13,937 nt of DNA from positions 1-13,937 of the forward strand of contig WQRM01000016.1 in the NCBI GenBank assembly GCA_009786735.1. Reading direction: 5' to 3'. Shown one piece after another: positions 1 to 13,806 of the stretch. The DNA is from Oscillospiraceae bacterium. GTDB taxonomy: Bacteria > Bacillota > Clostridia > Oscillospirales > Acutalibacteraceae. The notes under the pieces are model-generated. The model was given only the letters and a program-made list of their open reading frames with translations, searched no databases and was not told the DNA's origin. Numbering within the stretch: position 1 is the first letter of the stretch; every line of letters begins with the position of its first letter. A program made the translations under genes and the position numbers.

Positions 1-12
1 GGGGGGGGGGGG
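1..12. other. Poly-G run at window edge
   Basis: Twelve consecutive G bases open the window and are followed directly by ordinary sequence. Nothing biological explains them. They most likely come from two-colour sequencing dark cycles or a ragged contig end, so the true contig probably starts at about base 13. Confidence 0.7.
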
Positions 13-961: not shown

Positions 962-1072
962 TTAGACCGCAACGCGCACATCGTACTCATAGATAAAAAG
1001 CTTGTCCACTCGCGTGGTTGGTGTGCCAAAAGCCCGAAACACTTCCTTTTTGCTTGTTGTAACTGTTCTTAA
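962..1072 (-). pseudogene. Possible 3' remnant of an unidentified gene at the sigK junction
   Basis: Immediately downstream of the recognisable sigK part, a different minus-strand frame stays open for 36 codons and ends in TAA thirteen bases before the ParB ribosome binding site. Its end (VDKLFIYEYDVRVAV) alternates hydrophobic and polar residues like a terminal beta strand and looks like the natural end of a protein. It has no start codon with a ribosome binding site, because a TGA lies just upstream. It loosely recalls the C-termini of large serine recombinases, which would fit an insertion into sigK, but the match is from memory and weak. It could equally be a chance frame. Confidence 0.25.
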
Positions 1073-1265
1073 TCACATGCACCACCAGCCGTAGGTTGTG
1101 CTCAATGAGCTTATCGCGCGCGAGCTTGTCGCCGGCGGCGTGGGCCTGCAGATATTCCTGTTCTTGTGCGCTGGTCAGTGGTGGCGGAAACGACCCGGTG
1201 TTGCTCAAATGCAGCGCGAAAATGAGAAATTTCGATGAAACCAGTTCAAGTAGCATGTGCAGCAT
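987..1265 (-). pseudogene. sigK: Truncated sporulation sigma factor SigK, N-terminal fragment
   Basis: The reading frame gives 92 residues. Residues 1-25 form the hydrophobic pro-sequence region typical of pro-sigma-K, and residues 26-70 match the start of sigma-K region 1.2/2.1, with FPPPL, the GD..AR..LIEHNLRLV block (45-61) and VHVIK (62-66). Sigma-K directs late mother-cell transcription during sporulation. Homology stops near residue 66-70, after which about 22 unrelated residues lead to a stop; the DNA-binding regions 2.4 to 4.2 are absent, whereas the full protein is about 230-240 residues. The ATG at 1265 was chosen because GAGGGGG lies 9 bases upstream and the hydrophobic leader starts there. 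Either the gene is dead, or it is interrupted by an element like skin in Bacillus subtilis and Clostridioides difficile with the rest beyond the left edge. It is unlikely to give a working sigma factor as it stands. Confidence 0.75.
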
Positions 1266-7220: not shown

Positions 7221-7576
7221 GTTTCAATCCTCCGCTGCCGTTTTTTCTTCGCGAGCGAGAGCAGCAGCATTCCCGTCCAAACGAACATGGATAGACCGAT
7301 GACGAACACGCCCAAGTTGAAGTCCGCTAGAATGACCGCTAGCCAGTCTAGCGCTTCGCCGAGCCACAAGTGCCGCAGAATCAGCAGCCCTGCGCCGCCC
7401 CAAAGCAGACCCGAAAGCCAAGCCAGCTCACGCCAAAACGACGCCTTAGCGGGTGTGCTTTCCGCAGTTTTTTCGTCAGCAAGCTTGAGCACCTGCCGCC
7501 TTTCGTAGCACGCGAATGCCACCGTTGCGGTGGTCACCAAAACCGCCGCCGTGACTGCTGTTGTTGCGCATCCCAT
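7217..7576 (-). CDS. Small three-helix membrane protein, first gene of the operon
   Basis: The 119-residue product has three hydrophobic segments at about 5-23, 50-68 and 86-109. The first two are joined by a polar, charged stretch (24-48, starting YERRQ), and the protein ends in a basic tail (KKKRQRR, 110-116). The ATG at 7576 is chosen over an upstream frame extension to 7627 because a perfect GGAGGAG lies seven bases before it, and because the extension would start within the promoter's -10. The stop overlaps the lipoprotein ATG (ATGA), so the two are translated together. I do not recognise a family. The position suggests it works with the lipoprotein at the membrane. Confidence 0.8.
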   Translation of the reverse strand: MGCATTAVTAAVLVTTATVAFACYERRQVLKLADEKTAESTPAKASFWRELAWLSGLLWGGAGLLILRHLWLGEALDWLAVILADFNLGVFVIGLSMFVWTGMLLLSLAKKKRQRRIET

Positions 7577-7618
7577 AAAAAAACTCCTCCTACAATGTGA
7601 AATATTCAAACTCATTAT

Positions 7619-7647
7619 ATTGTACATGATTGGGGCGGAGTTGTCAA
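7619..7647 (-). promoter_or_regulatory. Sigma-A promoter of the membrane protein-lipoprotein-oxidoreductase-hypAB operon
   Basis: On the minus strand a perfect TTGACA (7642-7647) is followed after exactly 17 bases by TACAAT (7619-7624), one base from consensus. Transcription would start near 7611, leaving a leader of about 35 bases with a strong ribosome binding site. A second TATAAT overlaps at 7614-7619 but is too far from the -35. No internal terminator was seen between here and 2354, so all six genes may be on one message. Confidence 0.85.
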
Positions 7648-7815: not shown

Positions 7816-7831
7816 GGAAACGATAGAGTTT

Positions 7832-7884
7832 GAGGAAAGCAAGCCGAAAATGGGAAAAACATCGCTGCTTTCTCATGGACGGCT
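7832..7884 (+). promoter_or_regulatory. Possible structured leader upstream of hsdR
   Basis: In the ~120-base untranslated leader, GAGGAAAGCA (7832-7841) can pair with TGCTTTCTC (7866-7874) with one bulged G. AGCCG (7842-7846) could instead pair with CGGCT (7880-7884), giving two competing folds. No T-run terminator follows and the hsdR ribosome binding site is outside both stems. I do not recognise a known riboswitch, so regulation by this RNA is only a possibility. Confidence 0.25.
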
Positions 7885-7940
7885 CATCTGTTGGACGAAT
7901 CAAATGCTTAAATCCAAAACAAGAGCGGGAGGTTTCCATT

Positions 7941-10900
7941 ATGAACAAAGAAGCCCAAATCGAAAAAAGTTTTCTGGATATTCTAACCCATCGGGAAAAT
8001 CAGTGGACATACCGTGATGACATTAAAACCGAAACCGCGCTTTGGACGAACTTGCGTGCACACATCAATCGTATCAATGTCGCCCGGCTGGATGGCGTGC
8101 CACTTACGGATAAAGAGTTTGAGCAACTAAAAGTTGAGTTTAAACGTTTGACTGCCACTACATTTGGTGCGTCTCAATGGTTAAGAGGCGAAAACGGTGT
8201 TGCCGCCATTAACATTGAACGCGAAAATGTTGAGCAGGGCAGCGTATCGCTTGTGTTGTTCAGCAATAAAGAAATCGCGGGCGGCATTTCAAGTTATGAA
8301 GTTGTCAACCAAATCAAACCTGACGCGGGCTCAGATATACGCGGCGATGTGACATTGCTGATAAACGGTTTGCCGATGATCCACATTGAATTGAAAGCGG
8401 AATCCGCAAAAGATGGCTATATGCAAGCGTTTGAGCAAATCAAACGTTATGCTGAAGCCGGTTTTTTTGACGGCATCTATGCCACAACGCAAATTTTTGT
8501 GATTAGCAACAAAGTGTCCACAAAATATTTTGCTCGTCCGGGTTCAAATAGCGCAAAAGCTTTTGATGCAGCCAAGAAGTTTTTGTTTAACTGGAGAACG
8601 CCAAACAACGAGCCCGTTGAACACCTCTATGATTTCACAAGACAGGTTTTGCGTATCCCTGATGCACATGAGCTAGTGAGCAAATATACCATTTTGGTGG
8701 ACGACAAAAAGAACCAAAAGTTCCTCATGGTCTTAAGGCCCTATCAAATACACGCGATTCAAAACATTGTCCGTCAGGCGGCGAAGCATGAGAGTGGCTT
8801 CATTTGGCACGCCACAGGTTCGGGCAAAACCATCACTAGTTTTGTTGCAACCAAGCTGCTAGCGCAAGCATCAATTGGCGTTGACCGCACCGTGATGGTG
8901 GTTGACCGCACAGACCTGGATAGCCAAACCAAAGGCGAGTTCAGCAAATTTGCTTCAGAGTTCCACACCGGGCTGGCATCAGGCGATGTTGCGGACAATA
9001 CGCTGATTGTTGGCGTGGATAACCAGCGGCAGCTTAGCAATAGTTTATTGAGCAAGAAAAACAACAACACGATCATCGTCACAACGATTCAAAAGTTGGG
9101 CGCTGCCATCCGAAACGCCAAAGAAACACAAAGCGGCAAATTTGAGGCGCTCAAAAGCGAGCACATCGTTTTTGTTGTTGACGAATGCCATCGCGCGGTG
9201 AGCGACGAGCAGATGCGAGAAATCAAGAAGTTCCTGCCAAACTCAACCTGGTTCGGCCTGACCGGCACGCCTATTTTTGAAGAAAACCAAAAGCAAGAAA
9301 ACGGAACATTCGCAAGGACAACCCAGCAGCAATATGGCGACTTGCTTCACGCATACACCACCAAAAACGCGATGGATGATAACTCCGTTCTCAACTTTCA
9401 GGTAGAGTATCATTGCCTGCTAAACGAGGACAGCAAAGACGAATTTTTGTATAGAAAAGTGAAAGAAAGTTTCCCAAAGCTCGATCCCATGAAAAAACTT
9501 GCAGACATGACCGAAACGGAACGAGAAGAATTGCAAGACAAAGAGCTTTTTGAGCAAGATGATTTTGTCGAAAAAATGCTGCTAAAGATCTTCAAACGCC
9601 AGTCTGTGATTGAACGCTTCAAAGTCGTTAATGGCGCTCCAACCATGAGCGCAGTTCTGACCACGCACTCCATTGCACAAGCCAAACGTATCTATCATAG
9701 GTTGCAGCAAATGAAAGCGGCTGGCATCTTGCTAAATGGCAGAGAGCTTGATGAGCGGCATACACTGCGTGACCCTGATTTCCCAAGGGTTGCGATCACC
9801 TATTCGCTTAATGAAAACCAAGATAAAATGAATGAAGCCCACGCAGAAATTGACTCAATCATGCAGGAATACAACACGCTGTTTGGCACAAATTACACAG
9901 ACGCCGACCAGTTCAACCGAAACATCAATAGTCGGCTGGCACGCAAAGATGTGCAATACCGGAAGGACGGACAATGGCTTGATCTAGTGATTGTTGTGGA
10001 TCGCTTGCTGACTGGCTTTGATGCACCGACCATACAGACCTTGTATGTTGACCGCGAGCTGAAATATCAGAAGCTGCTGCAAGCGTTTTCTCGCACCAAT
10101 CGCATTGCGCCGAACAAGGAAAATGGTATCATTGTGACATTTAGAAAGCCGCACACCATGCGCCAACATGTGGCGGACGCAATTCGCCTGTTCACGAACC
10201 AACAGCAAGACTGGGAAAGCTTGGTGCCACAGGAATATTGCGAGGTCAAGGCTGCGTTTATCGAGGGGCACGGCGAGCTATTGGCGGCAAAAGAAGCGCT
10301 TGCGCTTGATCCAAACAACATCAAAAAGAAAATTGCTCAAGTGCGGGCGTATCAAAAACTTGAAAAAATCCAAAGAGCCATGAAAAGCTATGAGGATTTT
10401 GAACTTGACTTTGGCGAATTAGAGGCTATAATTAAAACGCTGCCCGAAGAAAAAGGGCGCGCTGAAAACCTGAAAGCGGAGATTCGCGAGGAGCTTAAAG
10501 ACAAAAAGCGCGATGATGCAGACGACTGGCTGAAAGATATTGAATTTAGCAGCGGGCAACGGGCGGCGCACGAGGAGCGCATTGATAGTTTTTACATTAA
10601 CCAGCTGTTGAACGACTATCAAACATGTGCAGGCGAAAAAGATAAAAACGAGCTTCGTGATAAAATCATGAAAGAAGTTAATGCAAAACCCGCGGTCGTT
10701 CAATCCATTTATAATCTCATCTTGGCAGATATTGACCAAAACAAGCTGACAAAAGAGTGGGCAGAGTATTTTGAAGCGGAAATTGAGCGGATCATCCAAC
10801 ATGCAGCTAACAGGCTAAAAGTGCCTGTCCAGAGCCTGCAAACGAGTTTCAATGAATATCGCCCGAGCAACGGATCTGTGCCTTTTATCAACGTGATCAA

Positions 10901-11039
10901 CGAGGCATCGCAGCTGGACAAAGAGGCTTTTGAGGCTGCGTTCAATGAAAAATACAGAAAACGACTTTTGGTGATAGAGCAGTATTGGAAGGGCGTAATT
11001 GACGATGAATTAACGCCGTTGAAGGAGGAAACGTTATGA
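7941..11039 (+). CDS. hsdR: Type I restriction enzyme, restriction subunit HsdR
   Basis: The 1032-residue product is a full-length HsdR, the subunit that translocates and cuts unmodified DNA within the R2M2S complex. The N-terminal PD-(D/E)xK nuclease shows Asp136 (RGDV), Glu150 and Lys152 (IELKAE), and the QxxxY motif at 166-170. The helicase domains show HATGSGKT (290-297), VVDECHRA (412-419), GLTGTP (439-444), DRLLTGFDAP (687-696) and QAFSRTNR (714-721). The C-terminal third is charged and helical, as expected for docking to HsdM/HsdS. The ATG at 7941 has GGGAGG eight bases upstream; the same frame stays open to 7830 but those codons lack a ribosome binding site and family homology. It overlaps hsdS by ATGA. 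The gene looks more AT-rich than the hyp operon, consistent with horizontal transfer. All catalytic motifs are intact. Confidence 0.95.
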   Translation: MNKEAQIEKSFLDILTHRENQWTYRDDIKTETALWTNLRAHINRINVARLDGVPLTDKEFEQLKVEFKRLTATTFGASQWLRGENGVAAINIERENVEQGSVSLVLFSNKEIAGGISSYEVVNQIKPDAGSDIRGDVTLLINGLPMIHIELKAESAKDGYMQAFEQIKRYAEAGFFDGIYATTQIFVISNKVSTKYFARPGSNSAKAFDAAKKFLFNWRTPNNEPVEHLYDFTRQVLRIPDAHELVSKYTILVDDKKNQKFLMVLRPYQIHAIQNIVRQAAKHESGFIWHATGSGKTITSFVATKLLAQASIGVDRTVMVVDRTDLDSQTKGEFSKFASEFHTGLASGDVADNTLIVGVDNQRQLSNSLLSKKNNNTIIVTTIQKLGAAIRNAKETQSGKFEALKSEHIVFVVDECHRAVSDEQMREIKKFLPNSTWFGLTGTPIFEENQKQENGTFARTTQQQYGDLLHAYTTKNAMDDNSVLNFQVEYHCLLNEDSKDEFLYRKVKESFPKLDPMKKLADMTETEREELQDKELFEQDDFVEKMLLKIFKRQSVIERFKVVNGAPTMSAVLTTHSIAQAKRIYHRLQQMKAAGILLNGRELDERHTLRDPDFPRVAITYSLNENQDKMNEAHAEIDSIMQEYNTLFGTNYTDADQFNRNINSRLARKDVQYRKDGQWLDLVIVVDRLLTGFDAPTIQTLYVDRELKYQKLLQAFSRTNRIAPNKENGIIVTFRKPHTMRQHVADAIRLFTNQQQDWESLVPQEYCEVKAAFIEGHGELLAAKEALALDPNNIKKKIAQVRAYQKLEKIQRAMKSYEDFELDFGELEAIIKTLPEEKGRAENLKAEIREELKDKKRDDADDWLKDIEFSSGQRAAHEERIDSFYINQLLNDYQTCAGEKDKNELRDKIMKEVNAKPAVVQSIYNLILADIDQNKLTKEWAEYFEAEIERIIQHAANRLKVPVQSLQTSFNEYRPSNGSVPFINVINEASQLDKEAFEAAFNEKYRKRLLVIEQYWKGVIDDELTPLKEETL

Positions 11040-12211
11040 CTTCACGGGGAAAGTTGGCTGCGCTCAAGGCGCTGAAAGCGGCATATCTACAGCAGATGTT
11101 CCCACAGGCGGGCGAAACCGTGCCGCGAGTGCGGTTCGCGGGCTTCAGTGGGGCGTGGGTGGAAAAGAAGTTGGGGGAGGTGGCAAGCATAAAAACCGGC
11201 GCAAGCGATGCGCAAGACTCTGTTGCCGGCGGCGAATACCCCTTTTATGTGCGCTCTGAAAAGATTGAGCGCAGCAACAAATATCTTTTTGATGGCGAGG
11301 CGATACTTATTCCTGGTGAGGGACGTTTAGGCGATATCTACCACTATGTCAACGGAAAGTTCGACTATCATCAGCGAGTATACAAGATTTCGGGGTTCGC
11401 AGCAGATGCGTCAGGATTGTTTGTCCTATACGCCATGCAAAAAACGTTCAAGCAACACGCCATGACACATACCGTCAAAGCGACGGTCGATTCGCTACGT
11501 TTGCCCATGCTGACCGGCTTTGAAATGCTATTGCCCACGAAAGAAGAACAAACCGCCATCGGCGCATTCTTCGCCAAACTAGACGAGCTTATCGCTTTGC
11601 ATCAGCGTAAGCTTGAAACGCTAAAAAAGCTTAAGAAATCATGCCTGCAGCAGATGTTTTCGACGAGTTCTGCGAGTTTTTCCTTGCCACAAGGCAATAA
11701 AACCGTTGAGAATACTCTCACTGATGCAAAGTATGTGCAAACCGTGCCGCGGGTGCGGTTCGCGGGTTTCGGCGAGGCGTGGGAGCAGCGGAAGCTGGGT
11801 GAGGTGCTGACAACGCACTCGTTTAGTCCTTTTCTACAAGAACCGAGCGATGACGGCGAATATGCCGTGATACAACAGGGCGATACGCCCATTTTGGGTT
11901 TTGCAAACGGAAACCCATTTGAGAATCACCAAGAGGTTGTTTTATTTGGCGACCATACATTGTCTTTATACAGACCCCAAAATCCGTTTTTCGTGGCGAC
12001 TGACGGCGTGAAGATTATCAGTGCAAACGGCATGCATGCAGATTTCCTCTTTGTGTTAATGGAAAGATATAAACCAGCGTCCGAGGGCTATAAGCGACAT
12101 TTTTCCATTTTGAAAAACGTTGAAGCATCGCTCGCTACAAACCACGCGGAACAAACCGCCATCGGCAACTTCTTCTCGACCCTAGACGAACTCATCAAAC
12201 AACATTCCTAA
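11036..12211 (+). CDS. hsdS: Type I restriction-modification specificity subunit HsdS
   Basis: HsdS recognises the bipartite DNA target for the type I complex. This 391-residue protein has two target-recognition domains, at about 30-175 and 238-375. Each opens with the same block (VPRVRFAGF..AW..KLGEV, 29-49 and 237-256) and closes with EQTAIG.FF.(K/T)LDELI (171-186 and 372-387). Between them is the conserved coiled coil ALHQRKLETLKKLKKSCLQQMF (187-208). The protein starts with a copy of only the last part of that coil (LAALKALKAAYLQQMF, 7-22) and ends just before it (LIKQHS), so the helix is split between the two ends, a circular arrangement known in some HsdS families. AAGGAGG precedes the ATG, which overlaps the hsdR stop. 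A second hsdS lies after hsdM. Confidence 0.92.
   Translation: MTSRGKLAALKALKAAYLQQMFPQAGETVPRVRFAGFSGAWVEKKLGEVASIKTGASDAQDSVAGGEYPFYVRSEKIERSNKYLFDGEAILIPGEGRLGDIYHYVNGKFDYHQRVYKISGFAADASGLFVLYAMQKTFKQHAMTHTVKATVDSLRLPMLTGFEMLLPTKEEQTAIGAFFAKLDELIALHQRKLETLKKLKKSCLQQMFSTSSASFSLPQGNKTVENTLTDAKYVQTVPRVRFAGFGEAWEQRKLGEVLTTHSFSPFLQEPSDDGEYAVIQQGDTPILGFANGNPFENHQEVVLFGDHTLSLYRPQNPFFVATDGVKIISANGMHADFLFVLMERYKPASEGYKRHFSILKNVEASLATNHAEQTAIGNFFSTLDELIKQHS
11115..11182 (+). repeat. Internal direct repeat of hsdS, copy 1
   Basis: This 68-base segment encodes the opening block of the first target-recognition domain. It aligns without gaps to 11739-11806, with 56 of 68 bases equal by hand count, and is nearly identical over the first 28 bases. 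It reflects the pseudo-dimeric build of HsdS and could serve as a recombination site for domain exchange. Confidence 0.8.
11739..11806 (+). repeat. Internal direct repeat of hsdS, copy 2
   Basis: The second copy of the hsdS opening block starts the second target-recognition domain. Its last 26 bases (11780-11805) match 13851-13876 in the partial second hsdS at 25 of 26 positions. That is closer than the match of either to copy 1 in the same stretch. Confidence 0.8.
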
Positions 12212-12222
12212 GGAGAACAACC

Positions 12223-13806
12223 ATGAACCTACATAACCAACTTTGGGCCTCGGCGGACATCCTGCGCGGCAAAATGGACGCCAGCGAATACAAAAACTAT
12301 CTGCTTGGCCTTGTTTTCTACAAATTCTTGTCCGACCTAGAGCTGAGGGCTGTGTACGAACAAGCAAACGGCAAACCGGACGCATACCCAAGCCGTGAAG
12401 TGCAATTTGATGAGCTGACAGATTGGCACGACGACAACGCCGACGAGCTGCGCAACACCATGCACCGCAAGTTGGGCTATTTTATCGAGCCGCAGCATCT
12501 GTTTTTCACGCTGCGCAACAAAGCATCTAGCTATGCTTTTCAAATTAATGACTTGCAATCCGCTTTTACCGAACTTTCACGTCAAGGTGAAAATTTTGCA
12601 GGCTTGTTTGATGACGTGGACTTGCGCTCCACAAAGTTGGGTTCGCATGACCAACAGCGCAATGTGACCATCATGGAAGTGATCAAGACCCTGGATGAAA
12701 TTGATTTGTTTGGGCACGAGGGCGACGTCATCGGCGACGCCTATGAATATTTAATCTCGCAATTTGCAGCAGGCGCAGGGAAAAAGGCCGGCGAGTTTTA
12801 TACACCGCAAGCGGTTTCAAAAATCATTTCAGAGATTGTTAGCATTGGGCAAGAAGACCTTGCGCCGTTTCATATTTATGACCCTGCGATGGGGTCGGGT
12901 TCGCTGATGCTAAATATCCGCCAGTTTTTGAAGAACCCCGAAAAGGTATTTTATCACGGACAAGAGCTGAACACCACAACATACAATCTTGCGCGAATGA
13001 ACCTGATTCTGCATGGCGTTGACCGCGAGCAAATGCGGCTTAACAACGGCGACACGCTAGACGAGGATTGGCCGACAGACGAGCCGCACCTGTTCAACGC
13101 GGTGGTGATGAACCCCCCATACTCTGCGCAGTGGAGCGCCGCCGAGAAATTTTTGAATGACTCACGCTTTGAAAGTTATGGCAAGCTCGCGCCGAAGTCT
13201 AAGGCGGATTTTGCGTTTTTGCTGCACGGGTTTTATCACCTGCAAGACCGTGGCACGATGGGGATTGTGCTGCCGCATGGGGTATTGTTCCGCGGGGCTG
13301 CTGAAGGCGTTATCCGTAAAACATTGCTCGAAACGGGAGCAATTGAAGCGGTGATTGGCCTGCCTGCGAACATTTTTTATGGCACGAGCATCCCGACAGT
13401 TGTGTTGATTTTGAAGAAAAACCGCGCTAGCCGTGACGTGTTGTTCATCGACGCATCGAACGATTTTGAGAAGCAGAAAAACCAAAACAGTCTGCGTGCC
13501 GAGGACATCGCCAAGATTGTGGATGCCTACAAGCGCCGCGAGAGCGTTGAAAAATATGCTCACTTGGCCACGTTTGACGAGATTGTTGCCAACGACTTCA
13601 ACCTCAACATTCCGCGTTATGTGGACACCTTTGAAGAGGAGGAGCAGATTGACATCGTGGCGCTGAGCGCCGAAATGACTGCCCTGAACGAAGAAATCGC
13701 GCGCAACGAAGCGGAGTTCCTGGGGATGCTCGACCAGCTTGCCGTGACGGATGACACCGCCGCGCTGATTGCCGCGACCAAGCGAATTTTCGGGGGTGGC
13801 GCATGA
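12223..13806 (+). CDS. hsdM: Type I restriction-modification methyltransferase subunit HsdM
   Basis: HsdM is the adenine-N6 methyltransferase of the type I system; two copies with one HsdS form the modification enzyme. The 527-residue protein has the helical N-terminal domain (about 1-145), the GEFYTP block (190-195), the S-adenosylmethionine-binding motif YDPAMGSGS (219-227) and the catalytic NPPY (297-300) of gamma-class N6-adenine enzymes. The tail from about 470 is coiled-coil-like and rich in E and L, as used for HsdS contact. AGGAG lies seven bases before the ATG, twelve bases after the hsdS stop. The gene is complete and its motifs are intact. It overlaps the following hsdS by ATGA. 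Confidence 0.96.
   Translation: MNLHNQLWASADILRGKMDASEYKNYLLGLVFYKFLSDLELRAVYEQANGKPDAYPSREVQFDELTDWHDDNADELRNTMHRKLGYFIEPQHLFFTLRNKASSYAFQINDLQSAFTELSRQGENFAGLFDDVDLRSTKLGSHDQQRNVTIMEVIKTLDEIDLFGHEGDVIGDAYEYLISQFAAGAGKKAGEFYTPQAVSKIISEIVSIGQEDLAPFHIYDPAMGSGSLMLNIRQFLKNPEKVFYHGQELNTTTYNLARMNLILHGVDREQMRLNNGDTLDEDWPTDEPHLFNAVVMNPPYSAQWSAAEKFLNDSRFESYGKLAPKSKADFAFLLHGFYHLQDRGTMGIVLPHGVLFRGAAEGVIRKTLLETGAIEAVIGLPANIFYGTSIPTVVLILKKNRASRDVLFIDASNDFEKQKNQNSLRAEDIAKIVDAYKRRESVEKYAHLATFDEIVANDFNLNIPRYVDTFEEEEQIDIVALSAEMTALNEEIARNEAEFLGMLDQLAVTDDTAALIAATKRIFGGGA

Follow-up and report, generated by a model that had tools for sequence, protein, structure and literature searches.

The window analysed here, a stretch of 13,937 nucleotides, is the whole of contig C16 in a draft genome (G000; 1.586 Mb, 227 contigs, 70.6% complete). 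In a profile search of the window, an ORF on the minus strand (987-1307) matches positions 1-70 of the SigK family TIGR02846 at 6.9e-17, and the homology breaks off inside the pentanucleotide AAGAA (Table 1). The protein encoded by this first part of the gene, hereafter exon 1, is 94% identical to that of G004, the closest relative found. The original prediction had placed at these coordinates a sigK broken at about residue 66-70 beside a mobile-element ParB, and both the break point and the ParB assignment agree with the profile matches. Outside the element, upstream of sigK, an ORF at 1346-2305 has no NCBIfam match and weakly resembles, at 23%, an Mrr restriction endonuclease found in an element of the related genome G001. 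Farther along, positions 7830-13806 hold what looks from its reading frames like a type I restriction-modification operon, with the genes ordered R, S, M.

Table 1. Features of the split sigK and its element on contigs C16 (the window) and C54
Feature	Contig	Position	Strand	Evidence
sigK exon 1, codons 1-65, SigK N-terminus to HVI	C16	1071..1265	-	TIGR02846 1-70; intact
Recombination core AAGAA, exon 1/element junction	C16	1066..1070	-	SigK homology ends within it; partner C54:5958-5962(-) before exon 2
Element-side arm of attachment site	C16	1048..1065	-	Imperfect palindrome with C54 arm, 14/18 complementary
ParB-like protein, 286 aa, first element gene past exon 1	C16	78..938	-	ParB_N PF02195, 2.6e-16; TIGR00180, 4.9e-26
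Terminator-like hairpin CCCGCAGGA..TCCTGCGGG, directly behind parB	C16	28..48	-	Spotted by eye
G-run at contig end, proposed meeting point with C54	C16	1..12		Sole 12-G run found in the draft
sigK exon 2	C54	5965-5486	-	TIGR02846 65-224, 2.2e-63; no stops
Large serine recombinase A, 534 aa	C54	7527-5923		Resolvase, Recombinase, Zn-ribbon (PF00239/PF07508/PF13408)
50-codon ORF just upstream of recombinase A	C54	about 7494-7646
Break in ATPase reading frame	C54	near 8716-8719

The second half of sigK and its recombinase

The rest of the gene lies on another contig of the same draft, C54, so that sigK of G000 consists of two complementary in-frame parts, 1-70 on C16 and 65-224 on C54, with the core in common. 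Recombinase A stands directly before exon 2, its last codons overlapping that exon; upstream of it come the small ORF and an ATPase of the AAA_14/DUF4143 type that runs to the contig end with a broken reading frame. A skin-like insertion had been proposed on the expectation of an intact 3' half of sigK, a serine recombinase and a short repeat at the two break points: all three are present, and the proposal is supported. An intact sigK elsewhere would have spoken against it, and a SigK profile search of the draft, 70.6% complete, gave eight matches and no full-length SigK. Searches for named relatives of recombinase A yielded 1 of 165 pattern matches in genome contigs and 1 of 67 in viral contigs, the latter remote (27%). 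A conserved 61-bp stretch with GGTCAACCCC occurs at C54:7714-7773 and at G004:C7:18765-18824, in a different order relative to the ATPase.

We consider it likely that a small skin-like integrative element, inserted after codon 65 (site A), splits sigK, and that the window carries exon 1 of this gene. Element DNA amounts to 1070 bases on C16 and 3171 bases on C54, whose end is a G-run too (GGCGGGGG); the element would thus measure about 4.2 kb if the two contigs meet in their terminal G-runs. Placed end to end, they give a gene order that makes sense, and the ATPase, which by comparison with G004 lacks only its first few residues, would gain an ATG. No ribosome-binding site was seen before the ATPase start in this reading, and the true G-run may be longer or shorter than the assembled one. 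The run at window positions 1-12 would sit at the start of the ATPase gene and, if real, might be a length-variable tract. A general poly-G sequencing artefact was dismissed because only one 12-G run was found in the draft, though the run at the C16 end itself may be one. Around the sigK genes of G004, G008 and G010, uninterrupted at site A, the neighbouring genes are not conserved, so that synteny gave no confirmation of the adjacency.

In the window genome the halves of sigK are on two contigs, whereas the orthologous element of G006 is complete on one: exon 1, element and exon 2 follow each other, with 3825 bp from core to core. The G006 recombinase is 72% identical to recombinase A, and G200, from another genus, has an orthologue 56% identical to that of G006 which also abuts exon 2. 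With orthologous recombinases at site A in G006 and G200, the site A element is not a one-off.

Attachment sites

The C16 junction reads GTGATT-AAGAA-CAGTTACAACAAGC and the C54 junction CATAACCGTTC-AAGAA-ATACTACGCC, while in uninterrupted relatives (six loci) the empty site A is GTGATTAAGAAATACTAC or near it (GTGATTAAGAAATAC-like). The core AAGAA recurs at the site A junctions of G006, G001, G005 and G090, and G200 has AAGAA/AAAAA. Around the first AA of AAGAA, the outer arms of the G000 site are complementary at 14 of 18 positions, a value matched by 4 of 20,000 arm shuffles scored at any of 18 centres. The palindromes of the predicted attP sites of G006 (14/18; 4 of 20,000 shuffles) and G200 (12/18; 90 of 20,000) have the same centre. 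Such symmetry is the form expected of a serine-integrase attP, here with AA as the putative central dinucleotide.

A palindromic attP would not be expected from a chimera, and this bears on whether the split could be produced by assembly or binning, through halves drawn from different strains or chimeric junctions. The fragmentation of the draft into 227 contigs, the location of the halves on separate contigs and the G-run at both contig ends lend themselves to that explanation. It is nonetheless highly improbable, as the same type of junction appears in independent assemblies, and on one contig in G006, and the two halves have the core in common and are 94 and 95% identical to the sigK of G004.

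Selection on the two exons

Compared with G004, exon 1 shows 22 synonymous and 3 non-synonymous differences over 65 codons (dN/dS 0.03), and exon 2 57.5 synonymous and 11.5 non-synonymous differences over 146 codons (dN/dS 0.028). Such strong purifying selection on both halves suggests a sigK that is split, not dead; the comparison covers all the time that has passed since G000 and G004 diverged and does not date the insertion.

A mobile element could also have inactivated sigK, leaving a dead or dying pseudogene in a lineage without normal spores. Several signs of decay would fit: G000 has a broken frame in the cargo ATPase, G005 retains only a C-terminal remnant of the site A recombinase, no recognisable sigK or piece of it was found in three of 14 genomes of the genus (66, 86 and 96% complete), and neither the part after site B in G006 (97% complete) nor the part between sites A and B in G001 (93% complete) was found. 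Against these stand the stop-free exons of G000 with their low dN/dS, the open recombinase frame beside an intact exon 2 in G000, G006 and G200, and two genomes of other genera, in one and eight contigs, where the split sigK is the best SigK match and the adjacent recombinase frame is open. We regard a dead sigK as distinctly unlikely.

Insertion sites within the genus

Counting site A, sigK is interrupted at four places among the 14 genomes of the genus: after codon 65 (A), at codon ~110 (B; RCID/NEIL), at codon ~129 (C; SMSD/PID) and at codon ~211 (D; SRSYV/SRIEKK). We take site B to be the skin site of B. subtilis, so that the break in the window presumably lies earlier in the gene than the B. 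subtilis one. The gene is split in six genomes, uninterrupted in five (G008, G010-G013) and was not found in three (G002, G003, G009). G000 is split at A, G007 at C and G004 at D; G006 is split at A and B on one contig. In G005 one contig holds an exon with breaks at both A and B, the next exon being on a different contig, and in G001 the break at A is on one contig and those at B and C are on a second. A SigK match to positions 41-225 in G007 was set aside, as it runs into the recombinase and does not represent exon 1.

Just upstream of sigK in G004, at C7:19207-20976 (L136/L032), lie the same ATPase as in the window element (86% nucleotide identity) and 22 bp that match recombinase A exactly; site A being uninterrupted there, they may be an element relic or show where the module sat previously. 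The site C element of G001 includes a RelB/YafQ-type toxin-antitoxin pair and the Mrr restriction endonuclease (L034:5834-6440 and 8580-9452). At site C of G007 the DNA encodes the large subunit of a terminase and has an HNH-like ORF named from reading (L037:7986-13527), so that it resembles a prophage more than a reduced element. G005 has two recombinases of the site B type, 49% identical, one on each side of the split (L035:7045-8811 and L036:7399-9249), which may reflect a tandem pair of elements at this site.

Insertion sites in the larger group

We surveyed 200 genomes from the larger group: by a hand count among the matches listed, 139 had a near full-length match; 45 were searched again, 14 had no SigK-level match, and the remaining two were G000 and G006. 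Uninterrupted sigK accounts for at most 133 of the 200, since six of the 139 near full-length genes are broken at site D; the C-terminus was read for these six of the 139, those whose match ends at 213-215. Among the matches listed for the 45 genomes, at least 14 show a split at site B with both pieces, and at least seven more are candidates with one piece. Four of the two-piece genomes (G043, G058, G138, G044) were read in sequence, and the others of the 14 come from the match table. Site A is found in another genus in G200, with both pieces, and in G090, with the junction only.

Site D was confirmed in all six genomes read (G164, G038, G041, G167, G123 and G121), and its left junction occurs in G044; the last exon after it was found in G164, G038 and G004 only. 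G164, a single-contig genome, shows the full arrangement: sigK 1-212, a 5.7-kb element, and the last exon, abutted by a recombinase 65% identical to that of G004. G038 is organised in the same way around a 7.0-kb element. In G044 a single contig carries both an element of about 22 kb at site B and a junction at site D. Two junctions are thus found on a single contig in four genomes (65 and 110 twice, 110 and 129, 110 and 211), and G001, one of those with a two-site contig, has a third junction on another contig. Apparent splits in G094, G179, G195 and G143 were rejected because the match runs to or near a contig edge, and that of G201 is a contig break with overlap instead.

Viral contigs

SigK pieces also occur beside recombinases in viral contigs. 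L070 carries a recombinase C (78% identical) and an exon; L146 carries a recombinase of type B, an exon and a site D junction, and is kept as a double insertion because the sequence behind site D is nearly the same as in G121. In three of six D-type contigs examined (L217-L219), a recombinase of the D family is followed by the sigK site or last exon, with L217 stopping inside the site; L222 and L223 show no sigK site or last exon, and L216 ends too early to tell. Beside L217-L219, five distinct viral contigs among 112 loci match SigK at 1e-3: L070, L074, L145 (the same as L220), L146 and L147. In L074:7746-7934 (IMG/VR 3300006045_000031), a SigK-like 5' fragment ends at about codon 77 (DQDE/FGCSWR*) beside a recombinase of the C-like group, possibly a fifth split site. 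L145, a 4.4-kb contig (IMG/VR 3300018430_001891), has B-type and D-type recombinases beside a SigK-like piece from position 109.

Such IMG/VR contigs, in which sigK pieces adjoin recombinases belonging to groups B, C and D, raise the question whether these are ordinary temperate elements using sigK as attB and leaving on induction only, an active lysogeny without a developmental programme. The terminase gene and HNH-like ORF behind site C of G007, probably a prophage, fit that idea as well. However, the window element, if complete, and the 3.8-kb element of G006 are too small for a phage, the scanned ORFs of both match no structural protein, and both have a block resembling SigE and SpoIIID sites before the small ORF and recombinase. 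A purely temperate element is accordingly an unlikely explanation of the window.

Recombinase tree and insertion site

We placed 33 recombinases in a tree, of which 18 bore a site label (A 3, B 9, C 3, D 3) and 15 bore none. The tree separates the four labels with the minimum number of changes (3), and none of 200 shuffles gave so low a value. Each label falls on one side of a branch against the others with 100/100 support; the program warned that long branches meet. Unlabelled rows fall inside B (4) and D (2), and one of the latter, L218, also precedes the last exon of sigK. This pairing of site and recombinase points to four lineages, each with its own codon, and to multiple splits that arose as independent insertions.

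We suggest tentatively, with somewhat less than even confidence, that sigK in this Oscillospiraceae lineage is serially split: four recombinase clades occupy codons 65, 110, 129 and 211, two or three elements are present together in some species, and as many separate excisions would have to take place in one mother cell before the sigma factor could be active. If so, serial splitting would act as a multi-key lock on late sporulation, built partly from strongly reduced elements.

Small ORF and putative control region

The ORF before recombinase A is conserved in G000, G006 and G200 (50-65 aa), and its position makes it a candidate directionality factor. Upstream of it, G000 and G006 have in common a block CTCATAGGACA...GCATAAA; within it TCATAGG and CATAAA stand 15 bases apart, and the form TCATAGGACA...CATAAA is found in both genomes. 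Judged by eye in these two genomes, the TCATAGG/CATAAA block resembles a SigE promoter. Likewise, TAGGACAATC in G006 would fit the SpoIIID consensus, the G000 version having one mismatch. The block was not recognised in G200, and as it is present in two genomes only, we make no statistical claim.

Proposed mechanism

On the sigK strand, the order would be exon 1 (C16), ParB, AAA/DUF4143 ATPase, small ORF, large serine recombinase and exon 2 (C54). Recombinase A would recombine attL (C16:1066-1070) with attR (C54:5958-5962) at the AA of AAGAA, releasing the element as a circle and restoring an in-frame sigK in the mother cell, which is terminal. The product of the small ORF may help recombinase A as a directionality factor, and the SigE-like promoter, overlapped by a SpoIIID-like box, could confine excision to the mother cell. 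Where a species has two or three elements, every recombinase would be responsible for its own site, and full SigK would require all excisions.

Comparison with known systems

The closest parallels lie in known sigK elements. The skin element of B. subtilis lies inside sigK and has its own large serine recombinase, 5-bp end repeats and the order skr-spoIVCA (PMC5025042, PMC6957869). The G000 element is alike in its location, its own recombinase, its 5-bp repeats and its small ORF, which in G000, G006 and G200 takes the same place as skr before spoIVCA (PMC6957869); unlike this element after codon 65, presumably of a few kb, skin is 48 kb of prophage-like DNA. In skinCd of C. difficile (CD1231, CD1234), the recombinase lies immediately upstream of the 3' part of sigK, as recombinase A does; an RDF is required, control is by the mother cell, and the element has 19 genes at a site different from that of B. 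subtilis (PMC5025042).

Island IV of B. cereus bv. anthracis (22,211 bp at sigK nt 195, no phage genes) is excised in sporulation and inserted close to site A (PMC10745906), so that site A is probably not new. It differs from the G000 element in its 22 kb, its restriction system and 17 proteins, and in the recombinase that its authors assume beside the 5' fragment (PMC10745906). Alicyclobacillus phage MMB025 and the site A prophages of C. tetani are also mobile DNA in sigK, with a SpoIVCA-family integrase or serine recombinase (PMC13141910, PMC5553647), and contrast with few-kb elements in their size (105 kb for MMB025, ~57 kb for the E88 prophage of C. tetani). Serine recombinases likewise rebuild genes by excision with gin in gerE, SP-beta in spsM, yin in yabG and vfbin in spoVFB (PMC5595907, PMC10747680); these are sporulation genes other than sigK, and the available text of those reports mentions no two elements in one gene.

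Elements at different places of sigK in different species were thus already known (PMC5025042, PMC10745906). A search of open papers turned up no account of a sigK with more than one element. As far as that literature shows, what is new is the presence of more than one element in one sigK, the occurrence within one family of four target sites with as many recombinase clades, and the few-kb elements. The last indicate that a switch of this kind may get by with very little cargo, and they supply sets of recombinase, att sites and candidate RDF. Two or three insertions per sigK pose the question of why a gene should be gated by DNA excision and how several excisions would be coordinated in one cell. 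The single skin cases of B. subtilis and C. difficile become part of a system: one gene interrupted at four codons, by elements with their own recombinase clades, within one family.
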